From contig NZ_NESS01000005.1 of NCBI RefSeq assembly GCF_002128425.1, forward strand, positions 310,001 to 374,000: a stretch of DNA of 64,000 nucleotides, read 5' to 3'. A program made the translations under genes and the position numbers. This stretch comes from Gottfriedia acidiceleris (GTDB lineage Bacteria; Bacillota; Bacilli; Bacillales; Bacillaceae_G). Positions within the stretch are counted from its first letter, which is position 1, and the number at the start of each line of letters is the position of its first letter. The notes under the pieces were generated by a model. That model ran no database searches, was not told the DNA's origin, and worked only from the letters and a program-made list of their open reading frames with translations. Of the stretch, positions 56,268 through 64,000 are shown in pieces.

Positions 56268-57197
56268 CTACGATTTTTTAAGCAATAACGGATTACTACT
56301 GATTGGATCAATTTTATTTCCATTTTGTTCTCTTTTAGCCCATTTGAAGAAATTGTATCCAATAACAGATCCATAAACTATTTCCTGGATAATTTTCATG
56401 ATAACTCCGCCAACCTGCTGATCTTCCCTTGCTGACATAAAGTTAAATACTTCTGGGCCTGAAATATTTAGTGATTTTAATAAATCTGGTGATACACATA
56501 ACTCCATCGCTTTACTCCATAATACTGGATCATTATAAGTCGCGTAAAATGGATGTCCTGCAAAAATAATAAGTGCACATGCTGGTGTTAATAAAATACC
56601 ATTTCCAAACATATAACCAATCTTTTGGATATCAGATAGGGTCTGTCTCTCAGGTAAGTTATTAATAACAGGAAACCACATAAATACTGCCATGAAAAAT
56701 AATATATTTGTAAATAAGAAATGATAGACATTATTCGTTTTTACAGTATCAAATACTAACGGGTAATGGTAAATCGAAAATACTACATTAAAAATAAGTA
56801 AAGCAATTAATGGTTTTGTAGCAAAATTAAAAAACGAATTAACGAATTTTGGTTTAAGTATGTTTCTCCATAACCAATTTGGAATACCATTAATAAGAAA
56901 GATCGGTGCAACTAAATATAACACAGCCATTTCAGTCATATGTGCACTAAAGATAATATGACCAATTAAATCAATTGGACTGCCTTGTGCAATATAAACT
57001 AACAAAATTCCAATTACGAAATACACCTTTTGTTTAGTCTCAGTAAAATGGTTTTTATCTTTAAATTTATTAATTATGTAAAAATAACCTAAAATGACTA
57101 AAACCAAAAACACAAATAAATATGGACTCCAAAGTGCTTTAAACCCGAACATCCCTAAGCTAATCATGAATGCACACCCTTTAATTATTCTATTCAC
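56268..57197 (-). CDS. ctaG: Cytochrome c oxidase assembly factor CtaG (caa3 type)
   Basis: This is a 309-residue protein with about seven membrane segments. The CtaG motifs ILLVYIAQGSPIDLIGHIIFSAHMTEMAVLYL and FSIYHYPLVFD contain the conserved His residues, and GHPFYATYNDPVLWSKAMELC with the later EDQQVGGVIMKIIQEIVYG segment completes the caa3_CtaG family pattern. It is needed for formation of active caa3 oxidase in B. subtilis. There ctaC-D-E-F precede it, but here upstream sequence carries no such genes. Confidence 0.93.
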   Translation of the reverse strand: MNRIIKGCAFMISLGMFGFKALWSPYLFVFLVLVILGYFYIINKFKDKNHFTETKQKVYFVIGILLVYIAQGSPIDLIGHIIFSAHMTEMAVLYLVAPIFLINGIPNWLWRNILKPKFVNSFFNFATKPLIALLIFNVVFSIYHYPLVFDTVKTNNVYHFLFTNILFFMAVFMWFPVINNLPERQTLSDIQKIGYMFGNGILLTPACALIIFAGHPFYATYNDPVLWSKAMELCVSPDLLKSLNISGPEVFNFMSAREDQQVGGVIMKIIQEIVYGSVIGYNFFKWAKREQNGNKIDPISSNPLLLKKS

Positions 57198-57494
57198 ACT
57201 TATTATTTTTACCTAATGTTTAAATTAATATTGGACTATGTAAATATATTGTAGATTTTTACAACAATAAACAAAAACTTCACAAAGACAAAAAAATATA
57301 AACATTACTTCTATCATATAATATTTAATGATAATATCCAAACTATTATACTACTAAATTATATAACAGTGATAACGGTTTATTCAAATTAAAATACGAT
57401 ATGAAAATGTTATTCATTTTTAAATGATAAGTATTTATAGGGAATCCATATCTACGAAAAGCCAAACGGTGATTTCCACTGAAGGGTGCTAGCT

Positions 57495-57568
57495 TTCTAT
57501 AGGAGATGATTCTTGTGCCCCCACGTTGCGTTTGCTTTTGTGTGGGCCTCACTTCATCTCCTATAGAA
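57495..57568. repeat. 74-bp palindrome at the left border of the accessory island
   Basis: Perfect 15-bp arms TTCTATAGGAGATGA (57495-57509) and TCATCTCCTATAGAA (57554-57568) enclose 44 bp with an inner stem (GCCCCCAC/GTGTGGGC). No T-run follows. It may be a mobile element end or a structured RNA. The gap 57198-57678 otherwise holds AT-rich DNA, and a short plus-strand stretch (about 57575-57683) that reads like a coding remnant but has no start. Confidence 0.8.
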
Positions 57569-57678
57569 GTATTTCCAATCTCTTTCTCTATTGATATTAA
57601 TCATTTAACAGAAGGTACAAAAGATATTGTTGTCGGTACTTCAAAAGTGATGATGAATTTGATCCAACTATTCAATCC

Positions 57679-58746
57679 TTATTGACGTTTTGACACTAAC
57701 AAAGCCAATGCAGCAGCCAAAAACCCAGCTGTCAGTTTGCCGACAATCAGCGGAATGACAAAATTCTTCTCCACACCCGCTACAAACCCTAAGTGACTTC
57801 CAAAAACAAATGCGCCGCTTACGGCAAATGCCGTATTTATGACTTTCCCACGGTCGTCCATCTCGTGCAGTGTTGCAAACATAGGTATGTGGTGAGCGAA
57901 GCAGGCAATGAATCCCCCTAATGCTTGTTGATTCATACCTAGCTTAGTTCCGAGTATTGCAAAAGGCTTTTTTAAAACTTTTACTAACACAAATACAAAT
58001 GGAAACGCACCGGCAAGTATGATTGTTATTTTTCCAACTGTTACAAATCCTTCTGAAAGCGGCATCATACCTGGAATAATAACGATACCTGTTAAAGTTT
58101 CAATGATAATCGAGATAAGACCAATGATAATTACTATTTCAATTCCTTTACCAAACCATTTAAAACCACGGATCATCACGGATTGAGCGAATAACATTCC
58201 TATGCCAATCAAGACAGATATGAGGATTGAAGGAATCAGATTTTTCACCATCCAAATTAAGCCAAATCCTGCTACGAATCCTCCCGCTAAACATCCAAAT
58301 GGAATCGTCATGAGCCCAACTAAAATTCCTTTCGCAAAAAAGGGATGATCATTTTTATGAACGATACTTAATGCAACCGGAATAGTAAAAACAATAGTTG
58401 GTCCCATCATCGTTCCTAAAAACACCCAAGAAAATAAAGCAGCATCACTCGATTGAGCCATTTCATTTGCCAATGAGTATCCACCCATATCAAGAGCTAA
58501 AAACGTAGATGAAAACATCGACGGATCCGCTCCAAGAAATTGGTAGATAGGGGATACAATCGGTATTAACCATTTTGCTAACACAGGCGATAGTGAGATC
58601 ATTCCAACCATTGAAAGGGCTAGTGCTCCCATAGAATTGAAGGCTTCCTTAAATTTTTGTCCGACTCCATACCGATTACCCAACAGATAATCTATAGCTG
58701 CTAGGACCATAAATCCCGTCATAATATATAAGATGATTTCATTCAT
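57679..58746 (-). CDS. eutH: EutH-type ethanolamine transporter-like protein
   Basis: This is about 355 residues from the ATG at 58746 (GGGGG upstream); an ATG at 58794 would add 16 residues and lacks a site. It has roughly ten membrane segments. The EutH family pattern is seen in MNEIILYIMTGFMVLAAIDYLLGNRYG, SPIYQFLGADPSMFSSTFLALDMGGY and GGFIACFAHHIPMFATLHEMDDRGKV. EutH carries ethanolamine across the membrane in enteric bacteria and Listeria. No eutBC, eutL or other microcompartment gene is present, so the substrate may differ. It is the last gene of the sigma-54 unit. Confidence 0.85.
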   Translation of the reverse strand: MNEIILYIMTGFMVLAAIDYLLGNRYGVGQKFKEAFNSMGALALSMVGMISLSPVLAKWLIPIVSPIYQFLGADPSMFSSTFLALDMGGYSLANEMAQSSDAALFSWVFLGTMMGPTIVFTIPVALSIVHKNDHPFFAKGILVGLMTIPFGCLAGGFVAGFGLIWMVKNLIPSILISVLIGIGMLFAQSVMIRGFKWFGKGIEIVIIIGLISIIIETLTGIVIIPGMMPLSEGFVTVGKITIILAGAFPFVFVLVKVLKKPFAILGTKLGMNQQALGGFIACFAHHIPMFATLHEMDDRGKVINTAFAVSGAFVFGSHLGFVAGVEKNFVIPLIVGKLTAGFLAAALALLVSKRQ

Positions 58747-58816
58747 ATCGAATACGCCCCCATTAAAAAGAACGGTCATCTTTATAAAATTCATTAGATG
58801 ACCTGTTCAATACTTT

Positions 58817-59879
58817 TTATAAGATAATTAAGTGCCTAGGAGAATGGGTAATGATTTCATAACCATTCTCAGTTACTACAAGATCATCTTCAATCCGGCA
58901 GCCACCCCATCCTGGGATATAGATTCCTGGCTCGACGGTAACAACCATACCAGTTTGAAGATTTTCTACACTTTTGTCAGAAAGCCGGATCGGTTCGTGA
59001 ACTTCCATACCTAACCCATGACCCGTTGAATGTCCGAAACTTTTTTTAGAATCCTTTTACTGTAATATATTCTCTCGTTAAATCGTCGATCGTTTTCGCT
59101 TTTGCACCTGCTCGAATTCCTTCTGTTCCTCGTTTTAGAGCTTCTAATACGATGTGATAAATGTTGTGGAACTCATCCGAGCAGTTTCCAACGACAATAG
59201 TTCTCGTAATATCAGAGCAATAACCATTGTACAATGCACCAAAGTCAAGGGTTACCATGTCACCATGCTCGATCACTTTTTCGGAAGCCAATCCATGTGG
59301 TAGGGCAGCCCTCTTACCAGATGCAATAATAGTATTAAAGGATGATGAAGTTGCCCCTTGCTTACGCATAAAAAATTCCAGCTCATCACGGATTGCTAAT
59401 TCCGTAACCCCTGGTTTTATGACATTCAAAATTTAATCAAACGCCTGATCAGAGATTTTAGCAGCCGTTCTCATTAATTCTATTTCTAGCGACTCTTTGA
59501 TTTCTCTAACCTTTTCAACGATATTTTCCAATTGGAGCCATTGTACATCTCCATACTCTTGTAACGTAGAGAACGTCTTCAATGTCATGGCATTTGCTTC
59601 AACAGCGACCTTTTTAAGACCTTGACGTTCGATTTCATTGGCAACTTCTTTTTCAAGATTACCTTCATGGACGATAATCTTAGCGTTTTTCACTTCATTT
59701 TGGGCCTGTTCAGCATAGCGGAAGTCAGTGATAAAGGTAGCAGCTATTTTTGAAATTAGCACCATACCTGCTGAACCTGTAAAACCTGTTGTATATCAAC
59801 GATTTTCACTCTTTGTAATTAATATTGCATCGACATTGTTCTCTAAAAGCTGTTTCTGTATTTTTTCGATTCTGTTCAT
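58817..59879 (-). pseudogene. Decayed M24-family peptidase (Xaa-Pro dipeptidase-like)
   Basis: Read from the ATG at 59879 (MNRIEKIQKQLLENNVDAIL), the frame has an in-frame TGA after KSENR (59796-59798), continues as YTTGFTGSAG, meets an in-frame TAA after KISDQAFD (59433-59435), continues as ILNVIKPGVTE, then needs a one-base frame change after EYITVKGF (about 59045-59055) to reach FGHSTGHGLGMEVHE and the end at 58817. The metal-ligand motifs of M24 peptidases (YCSDITRT, GHSTGHGLG, VEPGIY, RIEDD) are all still visible, so decay is recent. It resembles the intact gene just upstream and was probably a duplicate. Confidence 0.88.
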
Positions 59880-59881
59880 TA

Positions 59882-60982
59882 TCATTTAGCTCCTACAACC
59901 ATTAATTTTTTTGGAAACTTCGTTAATACTTCATTCCCATTCTCTGTAATGACAACATCATCTTCAATACGAACACCACCAAGGCCATTAAGATAAATGC
60001 CAGGTTCAATGGTGATGACCATTCCTGACTTCAATAATCCCTCATTAGCATCGTGCATAGAAGGTGCCTCATGAATATCAATACCAAGGCCATGACCAAT
60101 TCGATGTGGAAAAAAATCACCGTAGCCAGCCGCTTGAATGACGCGTCTTCCAGAGAGATCAACTTCACCAATTCTTGTTCCAGGTTGAGAAGCATCCACC
60201 CCAGCAAGATTGGCTTGTAAAACTGTATTGTAGATATTTACGAGTTCACTATTGGGATCACCATAAATGACTGTTCTTGTAATATCAGAGCAATATCCCT
60301 TATATTTCACACCTATATCAAATAGGGCAGTATCTCCTTTTTTTAACTTATTGTCTCCTGATGCTCCATGTGGGTTACTTGCATTTTGTCCAAACAGTAC
60401 AATGGGAGGGAATGACATTTCTTTAATCCCTTTTTTCTTTAATTCAAATTCAATTTTCCCTAATACTTCAAGTTCTGTAATGCCTTCTTTTAAAGCTTCA
60501 ATACCCACTTGTACTCCGTAATCAGCAAAAGCGGCGGCTTCACGTAAAACTTCAATTTCAACAGCATCTTTAACTAGTCGCATTTCTGTAAGTATAGAAT
60601 CTAGTGATGCAAACTCTACTTCACCAAAAATCTGTTGCAGACTTTCAATGTAAAGATAGGAAATATCATGCTTCTCAACAGCAAATAGTTTCATTTTGTT
60701 TCTGCTTTCAATCACGTGACGAACAAGTGCCCACGGGTGATCGGAATCTGTGTAACTTAGAATTGGATGGATCCAGCCTGCTTCCTTTATCATTTGAACT
60801 TCCATTGCCGGTGTAATAAAAATGGGTTCGTCATTTGGGAAGACTAAAATACCTACAAATCGTTCGTGCGGATCGTAATCAAAATTCGATAAATAGTAAA
60901 TATTTTCACGCGATGTGATCAAACCACCTGGAATACTTTGTTTTTGTAAAAATGTTTGTAATTCTTGCAATCGATTCTTCAT
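59882..60982 (-). CDS. M24-family metallopeptidase, Xaa-Pro dipeptidase/aminopeptidase-like
   Basis: This is about 366 residues from the ATG at 60982 (GGAG 8 bp upstream). A creatinase N-terminal domain covers residues 1-125. The C-terminal pita-bread domain has the five metal ligands: Asp in LFDIGVKYKGYCSDITRT (two), His in HRIGHGLGIDIHE, Glu in ITIEPGIY and Glu in VRIEDDVV. This matches PepQ/PepP peptidases, though M24 also includes creatinase-like and ectoine hydrolases. It is the first gene downstream of the sigma-54 promoter, with the decayed copy and eutH following. Confidence 0.9.
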   Translation of the reverse strand: MKNRLQELQTFLQKQSIPGGLITSRENIYYLSNFDYDPHERFVGILVFPNDEPIFITPAMEVQMIKEAGWIHPILSYTDSDHPWALVRHVIESRNKMKLFAVEKHDISYLYIESLQQIFGEVEFASLDSILTEMRLVKDAVEIEVLREAAAFADYGVQVGIEALKEGITELEVLGKIEFELKKKGIKEMSFPPIVLFGQNASNPHGASGDNKLKKGDTALFDIGVKYKGYCSDITRTVIYGDPNSELVNIYNTVLQANLAGVDASQPGTRIGEVDLSGRRVIQAAGYGDFFPHRIGHGLGIDIHEAPSMHDANEGLLKSGMVITIEPGIYLNGLGGVRIEDDVVITENGNEVLTKFPKKLMVVGAK

Positions 60983-61032
60983 GATCATTTCTCCTTTAAT
61001 GTATGGATTAAAAATAGACACGAAATATTAAA

Positions 61033-61047
61033 GCAAGTTCTGTGCCA
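61033..61047 (-). promoter_or_regulatory. Consensus sigma-54 promoter
   Basis: The minus strand reads TGGCACAGAACTTGC (61047-61033): GG at -24 and GC at -12 with 10 bp between them, the strict sigma-54 (SigL) spacing. The start would be near 61021, about 39 bp before the M24 peptidase ATG. Confidence 0.88.
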
Positions 61048-61097
61048 TTTTTATAATCTTTTATTTAGAGGATTTTTCAGGAAATGGTGTATATGTT

Positions 61098-61137
61098 TTT
61101 AGACACTGTATAACGCTTAGTGTCTAAATATTTAGAC
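61098..61137. promoter_or_regulatory. Probable activator binding site upstream of the sigma-54 promoter
   Basis: The perfect inverted repeat TTTAGACACT (61098-61107) and AGTGTCTAAA (61119-61128), 11 bp apart, is followed by a third half site TTTAGAC (61131-61137). It lies about 60-90 bp before the -24 element, the usual distance for an enhancer-binding protein. The EBP encoded next door is the likely ligand. Confidence 0.75.
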
Positions 61138-61351
61138 GGTAGATTTGAAGAACAGTAGAGCATGCTATAAGTGGAGTTTTATTTGAGATAGGGAGCTTAC
61201 TTACGGGTAGAAGAGAAATTCTTTCGGTAAGGGAAGATAACTTGAAACTAACTTTGCATGACGTTCGTAAACTTTTGATTTCAAATTTCTAAATCAGCCC
61301 AGGAGTTTTTACGCTCGTCTAGGCTAATTTAGAGACAGAGGCAATTTGTTC

Positions 61352-63040
61352 TTAAAGCTCAATCTGTAATTTTTTCATTTTATTGTATAAAGTAGCTCGA
61401 GAAATTCCTAGTTTTTTTGCAGCTGCTTGCTTGTTGCCATTCTCAGTTTGAATAGCTTCAATGATTTTATTTTTTTCAAAATCATTTAGATCATCTTGTA
61501 AGGAGTCATCGTATCCAGTCGATAACAATGCAGATTGTAACAGCTTTGGCGGTAAGGATCCAGCAGAGATGGTTCCTTCTGCTGACAATAATACTAATCG
61601 TTCGATAACATTTTTCATCTCCCTCACATTTCCAGGCCAATCGTATTGTAATAATGCGGAAGTTATCTGAGGATCAACGACAGTAATCGTTCGATGATAT
61701 AGCAATGAAAACTCATAAATAAATTGATGAAGGAGCTCCATAACATCTTCTTTTCGTTCTCTCAGTGGGGGAATCGTAATAGATAGAATGTTAAGACGAT
61801 AATAAAGGTCTTCTCGAAATGTATTAGCTTCAACCATTGCTTCTAAATCCTTATTTGTAGCAGCGATGATTCGGCACCTAGCTTTCAGTTGCTTTGTACC
61901 ACCAACCCGGTAATACGTTTTATCTTGCAATACTCGGAGTAACTTCACTTGCATATCCAAAGGTAAGTCACCAATTTCATCCAAAAAAAGTGTTCCTCCC
62001 TGCGCTAACTCTATTTTTCCTTTTTTACCTTTTGCATCTGCACCGGAAAATGCTCCCTTTTCATAGCCGAAAAATTCACTCTCAAACAATGATGGTGTAA
62101 TCGCACCACAGTTCACAGCAATAAATGGAGAGGTTGATCCACGATAAAAATGTATAGCTTTTGCGAAGACTTCTTTTCCAACCCCAGTTTCACCTAATAA
62201 TAAAATGTTCGCACTTGTTTCAGACATTTTCCTTGATAATGAAACTGTTTCTTTCATCAATTGACTCGATCCTTTAATTTGTTGAAAAGAATCATGCGAC
62301 AATTGCAGCCTTGAAACCTCCTTCTGCAGTTTAAGAATTTTGGAGGAAGCATTCATCAGTTCTTGATTCATTACCACTTGACTCGTAATGTCAGTTTCTG
62401 CAGCAACTGCACCTACGATTTGATCATTGATAAAGATCGGACTACTATTAATCATGACAAAGAGATCCTCACGTGGTTTATGCTGATGATGACGAAAAGA
62501 TTGACCTGTTTCCATCGTAACTTTATTTAATAACATATCTTTTGGAAAAAACTGCTCCATTTCATTCCCGATAATTTCTTCTTTGGGAATTGAAAAGATC
62601 CTCTCAGCACCATGAGTCCAAACAACCGTTTTTCCAGCTTCATCCACAATCGAGACCGAACCATCCATTGTATCAATCATCGTTCGAAAATAGGCCTCTA
62701 AATATTGATAAGATTCAAACACTTTAGAAAGTAAAACACTAGAATCGATGTAGCCCTTGATTTTTCCTTCTTCATCCGTGATGACTACAACACCTGATGT
62801 TTGCACTTCTTGAATCACGTCTTGAATAACAGCTTTTTCATTGAAAACAGACGCTTTTTTCCAATAAAATTCATTGATATTCTTGCTTTTAAAATGAAGA
62901 TACTCATTTATCGTTAACATCCTGACTTCACTATGATGCTGTTTAATTATAATTGCTGTTTCATTATTGTCATCCATATCAGAAAGCAAAGAGAAATTTG
63001 TTTGCAACAAATCTTCTATACTCGGAAGAAGATGTTTCAT
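61352..63040 (-). CDS. Sigma-54-dependent transcriptional activator with PAS and AAA+ domains
   Basis: This is about 562 residues from the ATG at 63040 (GGTGG 8 bp upstream); an ATG at 63073 lacks a site. A CBS-like N-terminal part (about residues 1-120, VVVITDEEGKIKGYIDSS), a PAS domain (about 120-240, IDTMDGSVSIVDEAGKTVVWTHGAERIFSI), an AAA+ domain with Walker A GETGVGKE, the sigma-54 contact loop GAFSGADAKG (usual GAFTGA with Thr changed to Ser), Walker B GGTLFLDEIGDL and FREDLYYRLN, and a Fis-type helix-turn-helix (NKQAAAKKLGISRATLYNKM) are in order. It should activate the neighbouring operon. Confidence 0.92.
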   Translation of the reverse strand: MKHLLPSIEDLLQTNFSLLSDMDDNNETAIIIKQHHSEVRMLTINEYLHFKSKNINEFYWKKASVFNEKAVIQDVIQEVQTSGVVVITDEEGKIKGYIDSSVLLSKVFESYQYLEAYFRTMIDTMDGSVSIVDEAGKTVVWTHGAERIFSIPKEEIIGNEMEQFFPKDMLLNKVTMETGQSFRHHQHKPREDLFVMINSSPIFINDQIVGAVAAETDITSQVVMNQELMNASSKILKLQKEVSRLQLSHDSFQQIKGSSQLMKETVSLSRKMSETSANILLLGETGVGKEVFAKAIHFYRGSTSPFIAVNCGAITPSLFESEFFGYEKGAFSGADAKGKKGKIELAQGGTLFLDEIGDLPLDMQVKLLRVLQDKTYYRVGGTKQLKARCRIIAATNKDLEAMVEANTFREDLYYRLNILSITIPPLRERKEDVMELLHQFIYEFSLLYHRTITVVDPQITSALLQYDWPGNVREMKNVIERLVLLSAEGTISAGSLPPKLLQSALLSTGYDDSLQDDLNDFEKNKIIEAIQTENGNKQAAAKKLGISRATLYNKMKKLQIEL

Positions 63041-63196
63041 GATCATTCCACCACCCAATTGTCTATTTTTCATATTACTCGATCATTTGCTGAGTTTGCT
63101 TCATAATTAATATCTTGTGAGTACTAACATTCCAATCGTTCTGGAATTTTTTGTTTTTTGTATGCTAATGGTGTCAAGTTCATCGACTATCGGAAT

Positions 63197-63535
63197 TTAT
63201 GAGCTATTTAATCCTAATTGATAAGAAACATCAGTGACATTAGACTCTAGTTGTTGTATTAATATTAAACTTTTTTGAATTCGATAATCAGATACATAGT
63301 TTAAAGGTGTTATTTTTTAAAATCCGTTTGAAATATCGACAACACTCAGATCCGCTTAATTGACCAGCTTTTACAATGTCGTCTAATGTTAGCTGTATGC
63401 TGACGTCGATTTCATAGAATGGTGAATTTTGTTTGATCAACTGATTGAATTTTAAAATATAGCTTAAAATGTTATTCGCCCGAAACTCCTTGGATCTAAG
63501 AATAAAAGAATCATGTTGGTTATATAAATATTTTC
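63197..63535 (-). pseudogene. AraC-family transcriptional regulator fragment
   Basis: On the minus strand a frame reads SFILRSKEFRANNILSYIL, then LTLDDIVKAGQLSGSECCRYFKRILKNN, the first helix-turn-helix of an AraC C-terminal domain. At a T6 run near 63312-63318 the frame must change by one base to give PLNYVSDYRIQKSLILIQQLESNVTDVSYQLGLNSS, the second half. It ends at 63197-63199, short of the usual domain end. No N-terminal sensor domain or start codon can be seen upstream. It is a nonfunctional remnant. Confidence 0.75.
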
Positions 63536-63809
63536 GTCACTAGCATTTGGTTTTTAAAAATGTTTTTAAACCACATCATGAACAAGAATACACTTCCATT
63601 TTTTCGCTGCTAATAACTGATTATTTTTATGGCTTTTAGTTTAGCATATTTTAAGCAACTGTACCGCCTTTAAGACAATAAAAAACGGACTACCGAAGTA
63701 GCCCAGATTTAATAACGCATGCGCTTGTGATGTATCAAAATTTATTCATAAATAACTTGGTTGAAATGGAAATAAAACTGGGTATAACTAAAAAAATCAA
63801 TTTTATCTA

Positions 63810-64000
63810 CTAAAAAATCACCTTAGGATACAAAGCTATCTTTTCCTTGTCTGACCTTGAAACCTTCACATATTTTTTTGGGTCAACAATTTCTCGACTT
63901 ATAGATATCGGTTTCCTTAATATCGTTTCCTGTACGCCTTGCCTTGAATTGGAATATCCATGAAACCTTGTCCGCCCCAGATTTTATGCTCTGTTAATTT
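63810..64000 (-). pseudogene. Possible eroded coding remnant at window edge
   Basis: Two overlapping minus-strand frames look protein-like but neither is whole. One runs in from the edge (WGGQGFMDIPIQGKAYRKRY) and stops at 63916-63918. The other reads ETILRKPISISREIVDPKK and ends at 63810-63812, with a stop upstream at 63984-63986. A single frameshift would join them. I do not recognise the protein. The rest of 63536-63809 shows nothing clear. Confidence 0.3.

Follow-up and report, generated by a model that had tools for sequence, protein, structure and literature searches.

We analyzed a stretch of 64,000 nucleotides from Gottfriedia acidiceleris (NCBI RefSeq assembly GCF_002128425.1, contig NZ_NESS01000005.1, positions 310,001 to 374,000 of the forward strand), which we will call the window. 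Near its end is an operon that combines a sigma-54 activator (enhancer-binding protein or EBP), two peptidase genes of the M24 family (M24a and M24b), and a membrane protein of the EutH family. The EBP, a doublet of palindromes that resemble upstream activating sequences (UAS), a -24/-12 promoter, M24a, M24b, and EutH are all on the minus strand and follow each other in this order of transcription (Table 1). An earlier note, made from the sequence alone, had described the same layout. Its coordinates were right, Pfam agrees with its gene assignments, and the palindrome that it saw is the doublet. As described below, the operon is real, recurring, selectively maintained, and of the sigma-54 type.

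Table 1. Features of the operon, with positions in the window.
Feature	Position	Strand	Details
EBP (sigma-54 activator)	61352..63040	-	562 amino acids from a likely ATG at 63040; N-terminal region that weakly matches a CBS-like chain in the PDB; Pfam domains: PAS, AAA+ sigma-54 domain (PF00158, 220.4 bits), Fis-type helix-turn-helix (HTH_8)
Hairpin	61290..61331	-	directly 3' of the EBP stop codon; fold z -2.46
Upstream UAS palindrome	61121..61138	none	TGTCTA-N6-TAGACA type, 1 mismatch
Downstream UAS palindrome	61088..61105	none	1 mismatch
-24/-12 promoter	61032..61047	-	TGGCACAGAACTTGCT, exact match
M24a	59882..60982	-	intact peptidase of prolidase/aminopeptidase-P type; open reading frame (ORF) from 61021, start probably at 60982
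M24b	58817..~59879	-	second prolidase-type gene, pseudogene in the window; stops and frameshift relative to intact relatives
EutH-family membrane protein	57679..58749	-	ORF from 58794, start probably at 58749

The earlier note had asked whether the trio of M24, EutH, and EBP occurs in other genomes, and it does. The EBP, at least one intact M24 gene, and EutH are found together at 11 loci (the cassettes): seven in the window's genus (including the window's own), one in Neobacillus niacini, two in one further genus (G245 and G046), and one in another (G315). All four genes are intact at six loci (L019, L020, L021, L025, L033, and L081). The other cassettes are the window, where M24b is a pseudogene; L023, L024, and L104, which do not have M24b; and L082, which does not have an ORF for M24a. 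At three more loci (L018, L022, and L032; the remnants), the EBP and M24 genes are lost or broken and EutH is kept. The EBP, M24a, and EutH are under purifying selection: the ratio of nonsynonymous to synonymous substitution rates (dN/dS) ranges from 0.07 to 0.27 over the four genes (with M24b compared among intact copies only), with values against the window of 0.08–0.13 for EutH, 0.16–0.27 for M24a, and 0.12–0.26 for the EBP, and with 0.14–0.27 for M24a overall. The cassette of N. niacini F8 (L033) has 92% DNA identity to G. acidiceleris L019 and is surrounded by other genes, and the lone EutH of Paenisporosarcina OV554 (L032) is a 91% DNA match in another context. The simplest account of these similarities would be that the cassette has spread horizontally.

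Within the window, there are two matches to the -24/-12 consensus with at most one mismatch, versus 1.31 expected, and TGGCACAGAACTTGCT is the only exact match. Judged by chance alone, this is weak evidence. However, a TGGCA[CT]-N5-TTGC[AT] site lies between the EBP and the first M24 gene at all 11 loci that keep both genes, and at none of the three remnants, so the strict promoter of the earlier note has a counterpart in every cassette. The two UAS palindromes are 33 bp apart, and their GTCTA and GAC are invariant across nine aligned loci. The evidence for the UAS comes from this conservation and from the doubling, as the single motif is not rare: with at most one mismatch, there are 12 sites in the genome versus 13 for the reversed control. 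A genome-wide search for a wider regulon by UAS found none, as single sites were no more common than the control. The window's genome encodes sigma-54, the -24/-12 site is upstream of the structural genes, and the EBP has both the AAA+ domain and the helix-turn-helix. We conclude that this is a real sigma-54-type operon, and we predict that the EBP activates its promoter. The EBP's own transcript perhaps ends at the hairpin beyond its stop codon. The same arms are visible in seven of the eight sequences compared (L025 has another hairpin), and a scan for terminators did not report this hairpin as one.

What might the EBP respond to? Its best match in NCBIfam is PrdR (NF041552; 537 bits), the regulator of D-proline reductase genes. 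The model's cut-off (795 bits) separates the EBP's kin poorly, because the EBP of L205, which is beside prdC-prdA, also misses it (499 bits); the EBP of one hydroxyproline-type locus scores 532 bits. Against 397 genomes from the window's order, the N-terminal 239 residues of the EBP had ten top matches of 390–468 bits, which are ten of the cassettes; the next match was at 215 bits. When the lower-scoring matches were read by eye, none of them had a match to EutH within 20 kb. Searching the PDB with the N-terminus gave four weak matches, including chains with CBS and PAS domains (E = 0.0033 for the CBS-like match), and the predicted structure was too poor for use (mean pLDDT 36.9).

We placed 38 related EBPs, from 40 fetched stretches, by their neighbors: 18 are at hydroxyproline-type loci, 3 at prd loci, 7 at loci with a proline-dehydrogenase-family gene, 5 beside genes for ATP-binding cassette (ABC) transporters, and 5 were unassigned. 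The ABC genes resemble those of a transporter for branched-chain amino acids. Each of the 18 hydroxyproline-type loci has at least five of seven gene clusters: the racemase family, an aldehyde dehydrogenase, a protein similar to dihydrodipicolinate synthase, and two clusters each of FAD oxidoreductases and 2Fe-2S proteins. The genes of one of these loci (L218) were checked with models, and its racemase-family protein does not reach any of the equivalog cut-offs. At the prd locus that we checked (L205), both PrdA (871 bits) and PrdC (585 bits) are over their cut-offs. The proline-dehydrogenase-family neighbors were checked with models at two of the seven loci, and the protein from L225 is below the NCBIfam cut-off. 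Three genomes from this order have a prd-type locus with a PrdR-like EBP (L202, L203, and L205).

In a midpoint-rooted tree of 49 EBPs, the window's EBP and those of the other 10 cassettes form one clade (support 100/100). They lie within a clade of 36 (also 100/100) with 18 EBPs from hydroxyproline-type loci, 3 from prd loci, 2 from loci with proline dehydrogenase, and 2 unassigned. The kinship of the activator to PrdR, which we add to the earlier reading, is well supported. Because its kin regulate hydroxyproline-type, prd, and proline dehydrogenase genes, the inducer of the EBP should be some imino acid.

The closest known regulators share some features with the EBP and differ in others. 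PrdR controls prd genes from a UAS of two inverted TGT/ACA repeats that are 10–12 bp apart, and this form is shared by PrdR and 14 other groups of EBPs (PMC6615313). The cassette UAS, which is TGT-N12-ACA, fits this form, and both systems use sigma-54. Unlike the prd regulon, the cassette EBP precedes prolidases and EutH, and searches with PrdA, PrdC, and the racemase of L205 found no match in any of the 11 cassette stretches (E = 1e-5). In Bacillus thuringiensis, as described in the accounts of the sox locus, SoxR controls genes for a proline racemase, a protein similar to dihydrodipicolinate synthase, an aldehyde dehydrogenase, and oxidase subunits, from sigma-54 promoters, and is needed for use of sarcosine and not of proline (PMC4941409, PMC4428206). 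In gene content, the sox locus resembles the hydroxyproline-type loci where kin of the EBP are found. Those accounts give it other structural genes than the cassette's, and the SoxR site, an 11-bp inverted repeat with a 7-bp gap, is not the cassette UAS.

Turning to the enzymes, M24a contains both the Creatinase_N domain (PF01321, 71.4 bits) and the M24 domain (PF00557, 226.5 bits). Its best relative of known structure is a prolidase (4zng, 283.5 bits), followed by Xaa-Pro peptidases; ectoine hydrolase (DoeA) and creatinase are far behind, at 74 and 69 bits. In an alignment of 10 M24 sequences, the columns for H218, D235, D246, H306, H310, H317, E339, and E353 are invariant; these are presumably the metal ligands (D, D, H, E, E) and the catalytic histidines. 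M24b is 34% identical to M24a and belongs to a different subgroup of M24; it is not a recent duplicate. Where it is intact (7 of the 10 other cassettes), it also resembles prolidases: M24b from L019 matches the proline dipeptidase 3q6d at 418 bits. In the window, Pfam matches M24b only as three broken pieces. Three in-frame stops and a +1 frameshift set it apart from two intact relatives that are otherwise nearly identical. This makes it a pseudogene, as the earlier note had it, and not the product of a single read error. For both M24a and M24b, the prolidase matches are far better than those to creatinase or ectoine hydrolase. Membership of both proteins in the prolidase family is well supported.

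M24a is presumably related to PapB from B. subtilis, and M24b to PapA; we know of no EBP or EutH that is linked to papA or papB. PapA and PapB are described as peptidases for proline-containing peptides (PMC5052260), and we predict this activity for the cassette's M24 proteins as well. Elsewhere in the window's genome, full-length M24 peptidases are encoded at L012 (47% identical to M24a) and at L013 (52% identical to M24b), and there is no -24/-12 match in the fetched stretch of either. We take the neighbors of the L013 gene to be efp and aroQ. Given this redundancy, the loss of M24b may be tolerated. Among the 18 hydroxyproline-type loci of the EBP's kin, two contain a prolidase-family gene (L218 and L209), and L209 has a -24/-12 site 210–230 bp upstream of it.

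The EutH protein is over the cut-offs of the family models (PF04346, 461.9 bits; NF011666, 491.8 bits with a cut-off of 482), which also match the EutH of ethanolamine utilization (eut) operons. It has no relative in the PDB by sequence (E = 0.1), and its predicted structure was too poor for use (mean pLDDT 46.6). EutH is present in 10 of 19 genomes from the window's family, all within its genus, and in 111 of the 397 genomes sampled from its order. Leaving out one partial match, these 111 genomes have 119 EutH proteins, of which 32 are a long form and 87 are a short form. Most of the long forms (29/32) are encoded within 20 kb of EutB. Of the short forms, 80 are in genomes without EutB; for 5, the genome encodes EutB at a distant place, and the remaining 2 are within 20 kb of it. 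The earlier note had started from the premise that EutH without eutBC is unusual. This is not borne out: in the window's order, it is the rule for the short form. (A B. subtilis genome among our controls also has EutH and no EutB, so a lone EutH is present in a laboratory species.)

We grouped 112 EutH loci after seeing their neighbors, mostly within about 6 kb on either side (some stretches end at contig ends). There are 81 solo loci, 15 eut-type loci, 11 cassettes, 3 remnants, and 2 others (L026 and L156). EutB or EutC is present at 9 of the eut-type loci; the other 6 have only other eut genes, and of these L145 clearly has only EutT. An M24 gene is in the stretch of 13 of the 112 loci, which are the cassettes, L026, and L156, and is at none of the 15 eut-type loci or the 3 remnants. 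EutA, EutB, EutC, EutL, EutM, and EutT are absent from all 81 solo stretches and from all 11 cassette stretches. EutB is also absent from the window's genome; EutC was sought only in the cassette stretch and is not there. The earlier note had proposed a sigma-54-type system apart from ethanolamine catabolism, and had asked if eut catabolic genes are nearby. The recurrence of the trio and the absence of these genes bear out the proposal.

In a tree of 113 EutH proteins (from the 112 loci and E. coli; made with a quick method and leaving out L157 of G772, whose EutH BLAST did not recognize), a single clade of 14 (support 96) unites the 11 cassette EutHs with those of the three remnants; L104 is deepest in it and on a long branch. 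The EutHs of eut operons are in a separate part of the tree. Two positions also distinguish them (numbering follows the window's ORF). Position 301 is asparagine in all 16 eut-type sequences (15 loci and E. coli), histidine in all 14 of the cassette clade, and mostly histidine in the solo EutHs (73 of 81, with 6 asparagine and 2 other). Position 333 is aspartate in the 16, serine in the 14, and glycine (46), serine (26), alanine (5), proline (3), or aspartate (1) in the solo EutHs. The solo EutH with aspartate (L087) groups with the eut-type proteins. Our guess is that the Asn/Asp pair binds ethanolamine. By placement and by these residues, the window's EutH is not of the ethanolamine type. 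Also, G315 has two kinds of EutH: one in its cassette, and a long one at another place within a eut operon.

The position of EutH in the operon suggests a different cargo. EutH is the cassette's one carrier gene. Secondary carriers are found in some operons of the EBP's clan: an NhaC-type gene is present at 4 of the 18 hydroxyproline-type loci (L211, L212, L213, and L219; by cluster, with L212 checked), and the sox operon of B. thuringiensis is described as including an amino acid carrier (PMC4428206). By analogy, the cargo of the cassette's EutH may be X-Pro compounds or proline.

Putting these together, we propose that this is an operon for X-Pro compounds that is induced by an imino acid, with EutH in the transporter's slot; we give this reading a probability of about 50%. 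We infer the inducer, the peptidase activity, the cargo and direction of EutH, and the fate of the product as follows. The EBP would bind the UAS doublet; its N-terminal sensor would detect proline or a related imino compound, judging from its kin; and, with sigma-54, it would open the -24/-12 promoter. M24a, and M24b where intact, would be cytoplasmic prolidases that split X-Pro dipeptides. The EutH-family carrier would move the substrate or the product, be it proline, something closely similar to it, or an X-Pro compound, and housekeeping enzymes would complete the catabolism of proline. Among the substrates that the earlier note had suggested, this keeps the proline-type compound, which is favored by the families of the regulator and the enzymes; an ethanolamine amide finds no support.

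Several observations weigh against this proposal. The EBP falls short of the equivalog cut-off for PrdR (537 of 795 bits). SoxR, which is an EBP of a hydroxyproline-type locus, is reported to serve sarcosine use without affecting proline use (PMC4941409). The curated models NF011666 and NF011667, which name EutH "ethanolamine utilization," match above cut-off. None of the 81 solo EutHs has an M24 gene in its fetched flanks, so the EutH family is not tied to prolidases. EutH survives without an intact EBP or M24 in 3 of the 14 members of its clade, and in two of these (L018 and L032) its dN/dS is 0.10–0.12, so it can be under selection, and can work, alone. In the open-licence PMC literature that we searched, we found no test of induction, transport, or peptidase activity for this operon.

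The last points from the genomes also speak for the strongest alternative, that EutH is a free-standing carrier for some unrelated small amine that joined the operon, and that its cargo is unconnected with the peptidases. At 81 of the 112 loci, EutH has no eut gene and no M24 gene beside it, and EutH outlives the EBP and M24 genes at all three remnants. But at 11 loci (family labels f1, f29, and f47, and N. niacini), EutH follows one or two M24 genes on the same strand behind a single -24/-12 site, and the cassette and remnant EutHs form one clade. We consider a free-standing carrier unlikely, at perhaps one chance in five.

Two other readings keep the link between carrier and peptidases and change the substrate, and we consider each of them quite improbable. 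First, M24a might be creatinase-like, with an EBP that senses sarcosine as SoxR does and an EutH that imports creatine or sarcosine. The M24 family does include creatinase, and SoxR is reported to be needed for sarcosine use (PMC4941409). Yet M24a is much closer to prolidase than to creatinase (283 vs. 69 bits), intact M24b is closest to a proline dipeptidase, and the operon has no oxidase gene. Second, the operon might serve only peptides that contain hydroxyproline, for example from collagen: of the 25 EBPs in the clade of 36 that are not from cassettes, 18 are at hydroxyproline-type operons. But a search of nine cassette genomes for the proline racemase/hydroxyproline epimerase family found no match over the cut-off (and matches below it in seven), so catabolism of hydroxyproline by the racemase/epimerase route is unlikely in those nine. 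A tenth cassette genome, G315, was outside this search and does have a hydroxyproline-type operon (L224).

Import of ethanolamine or an ethanolamine amide by EutH, with cleavage of the amide by M24, is less probable still. The name of the NCBIfam models is in its favor; the absence of EutB from the genome, the absence from the cassette EutH of the asparagine and aspartate that all 16 eut-type proteins have, and the separate eut operon of G315, with its own long EutH, are against it. That M24a is an ectoine hydrolase is very improbable: its matches to two DoeA models (117.9 and 86.1 bits) are weak and far under the cut-offs (575 and 613), and the prolidase match is much stronger.

A prolidase driven by sigma-54 has already been published. 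HD73_4161, a proline dipeptidase of B. thuringiensis, has a -24/-12 promoter and, in that study's account, no known EBP (PMC4428206). The study's table of affected genes gives it a value of 103.5, and it is listed by itself, with neither an EBP nor EutH next to it. The operon that we describe is therefore a new combination of known parts, and it hints at the type of EBP that might activate this prolidase, for which none was known in that 2015 study. Among the titles and abstract openings listed in our searches of the open-licence PMC literature, none describes a pairing of EutH with proline or with prolidase/M24, and we found nothing there on Gottfriedia and proline.

The operon is of interest chiefly for EutH, as it offers a testable cargo for a widespread and possibly mislabelled family of transporters. 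We speculate that most EutHs in this order are not ethanolamine carriers, that the Asn/Asp pair marks the ethanolamine type, and that the large group with histidine is a separate class of carriers, whose cargo is imino acids or different small amino compounds. In this view, no operon before this one had a regulator and enzymes that indicate what the carrier moves (proline or X-Pro compounds). This broader idea is tentative, and we would bet against it as a whole.

There are other hints about the neighbors of EutH. Some solo EutHs (L118–L121 and L175–L180; family label f25) are repeatedly near genes that we take to be similar to Bmp-type nucleoside ABC transporters, some with a DUF1028-type protein. 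At L026 (11551–14446) and L156 (6019–8869), EutH is followed directly by a gene of about 600 codons of the aminopeptidase P type. The pair in L026 is behind an XRE-cupin regulator, and the pair in L156 is beside an apparent amino acid ABC system. We considered these loci (from G016 and G594) as a second link between EutH and peptidases. Two cases are too few, and the stretch of a near relative (L105 of G295) does not contain an M24 gene, so we treat this as a hint.

Upstream of the EBP, at 63145–63500 (minus strand) of the window, is a broken gene for an AraC-family regulator. Intact ORFs with the same start are at the same place in L020, L021, L022, and L023 (with Pfam run on L021). Since M24b and the AraC-family gene are both broken, the window's copy of the locus is decaying. 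Searching positions 57000–64000 against Rfam at gathering scores gave no matches. Downstream of EutH, at 57496–57567, there is a strong imperfect hairpin with 14-bp inverted ends (z = -5.4 for 57480–57600). The L019 cassette, used as a query, has no match to 57446–57684, and the exact 14-bp end sequence is found at 4 of 248 loci, all in the window's genome. This hairpin is possibly a small inserted element.

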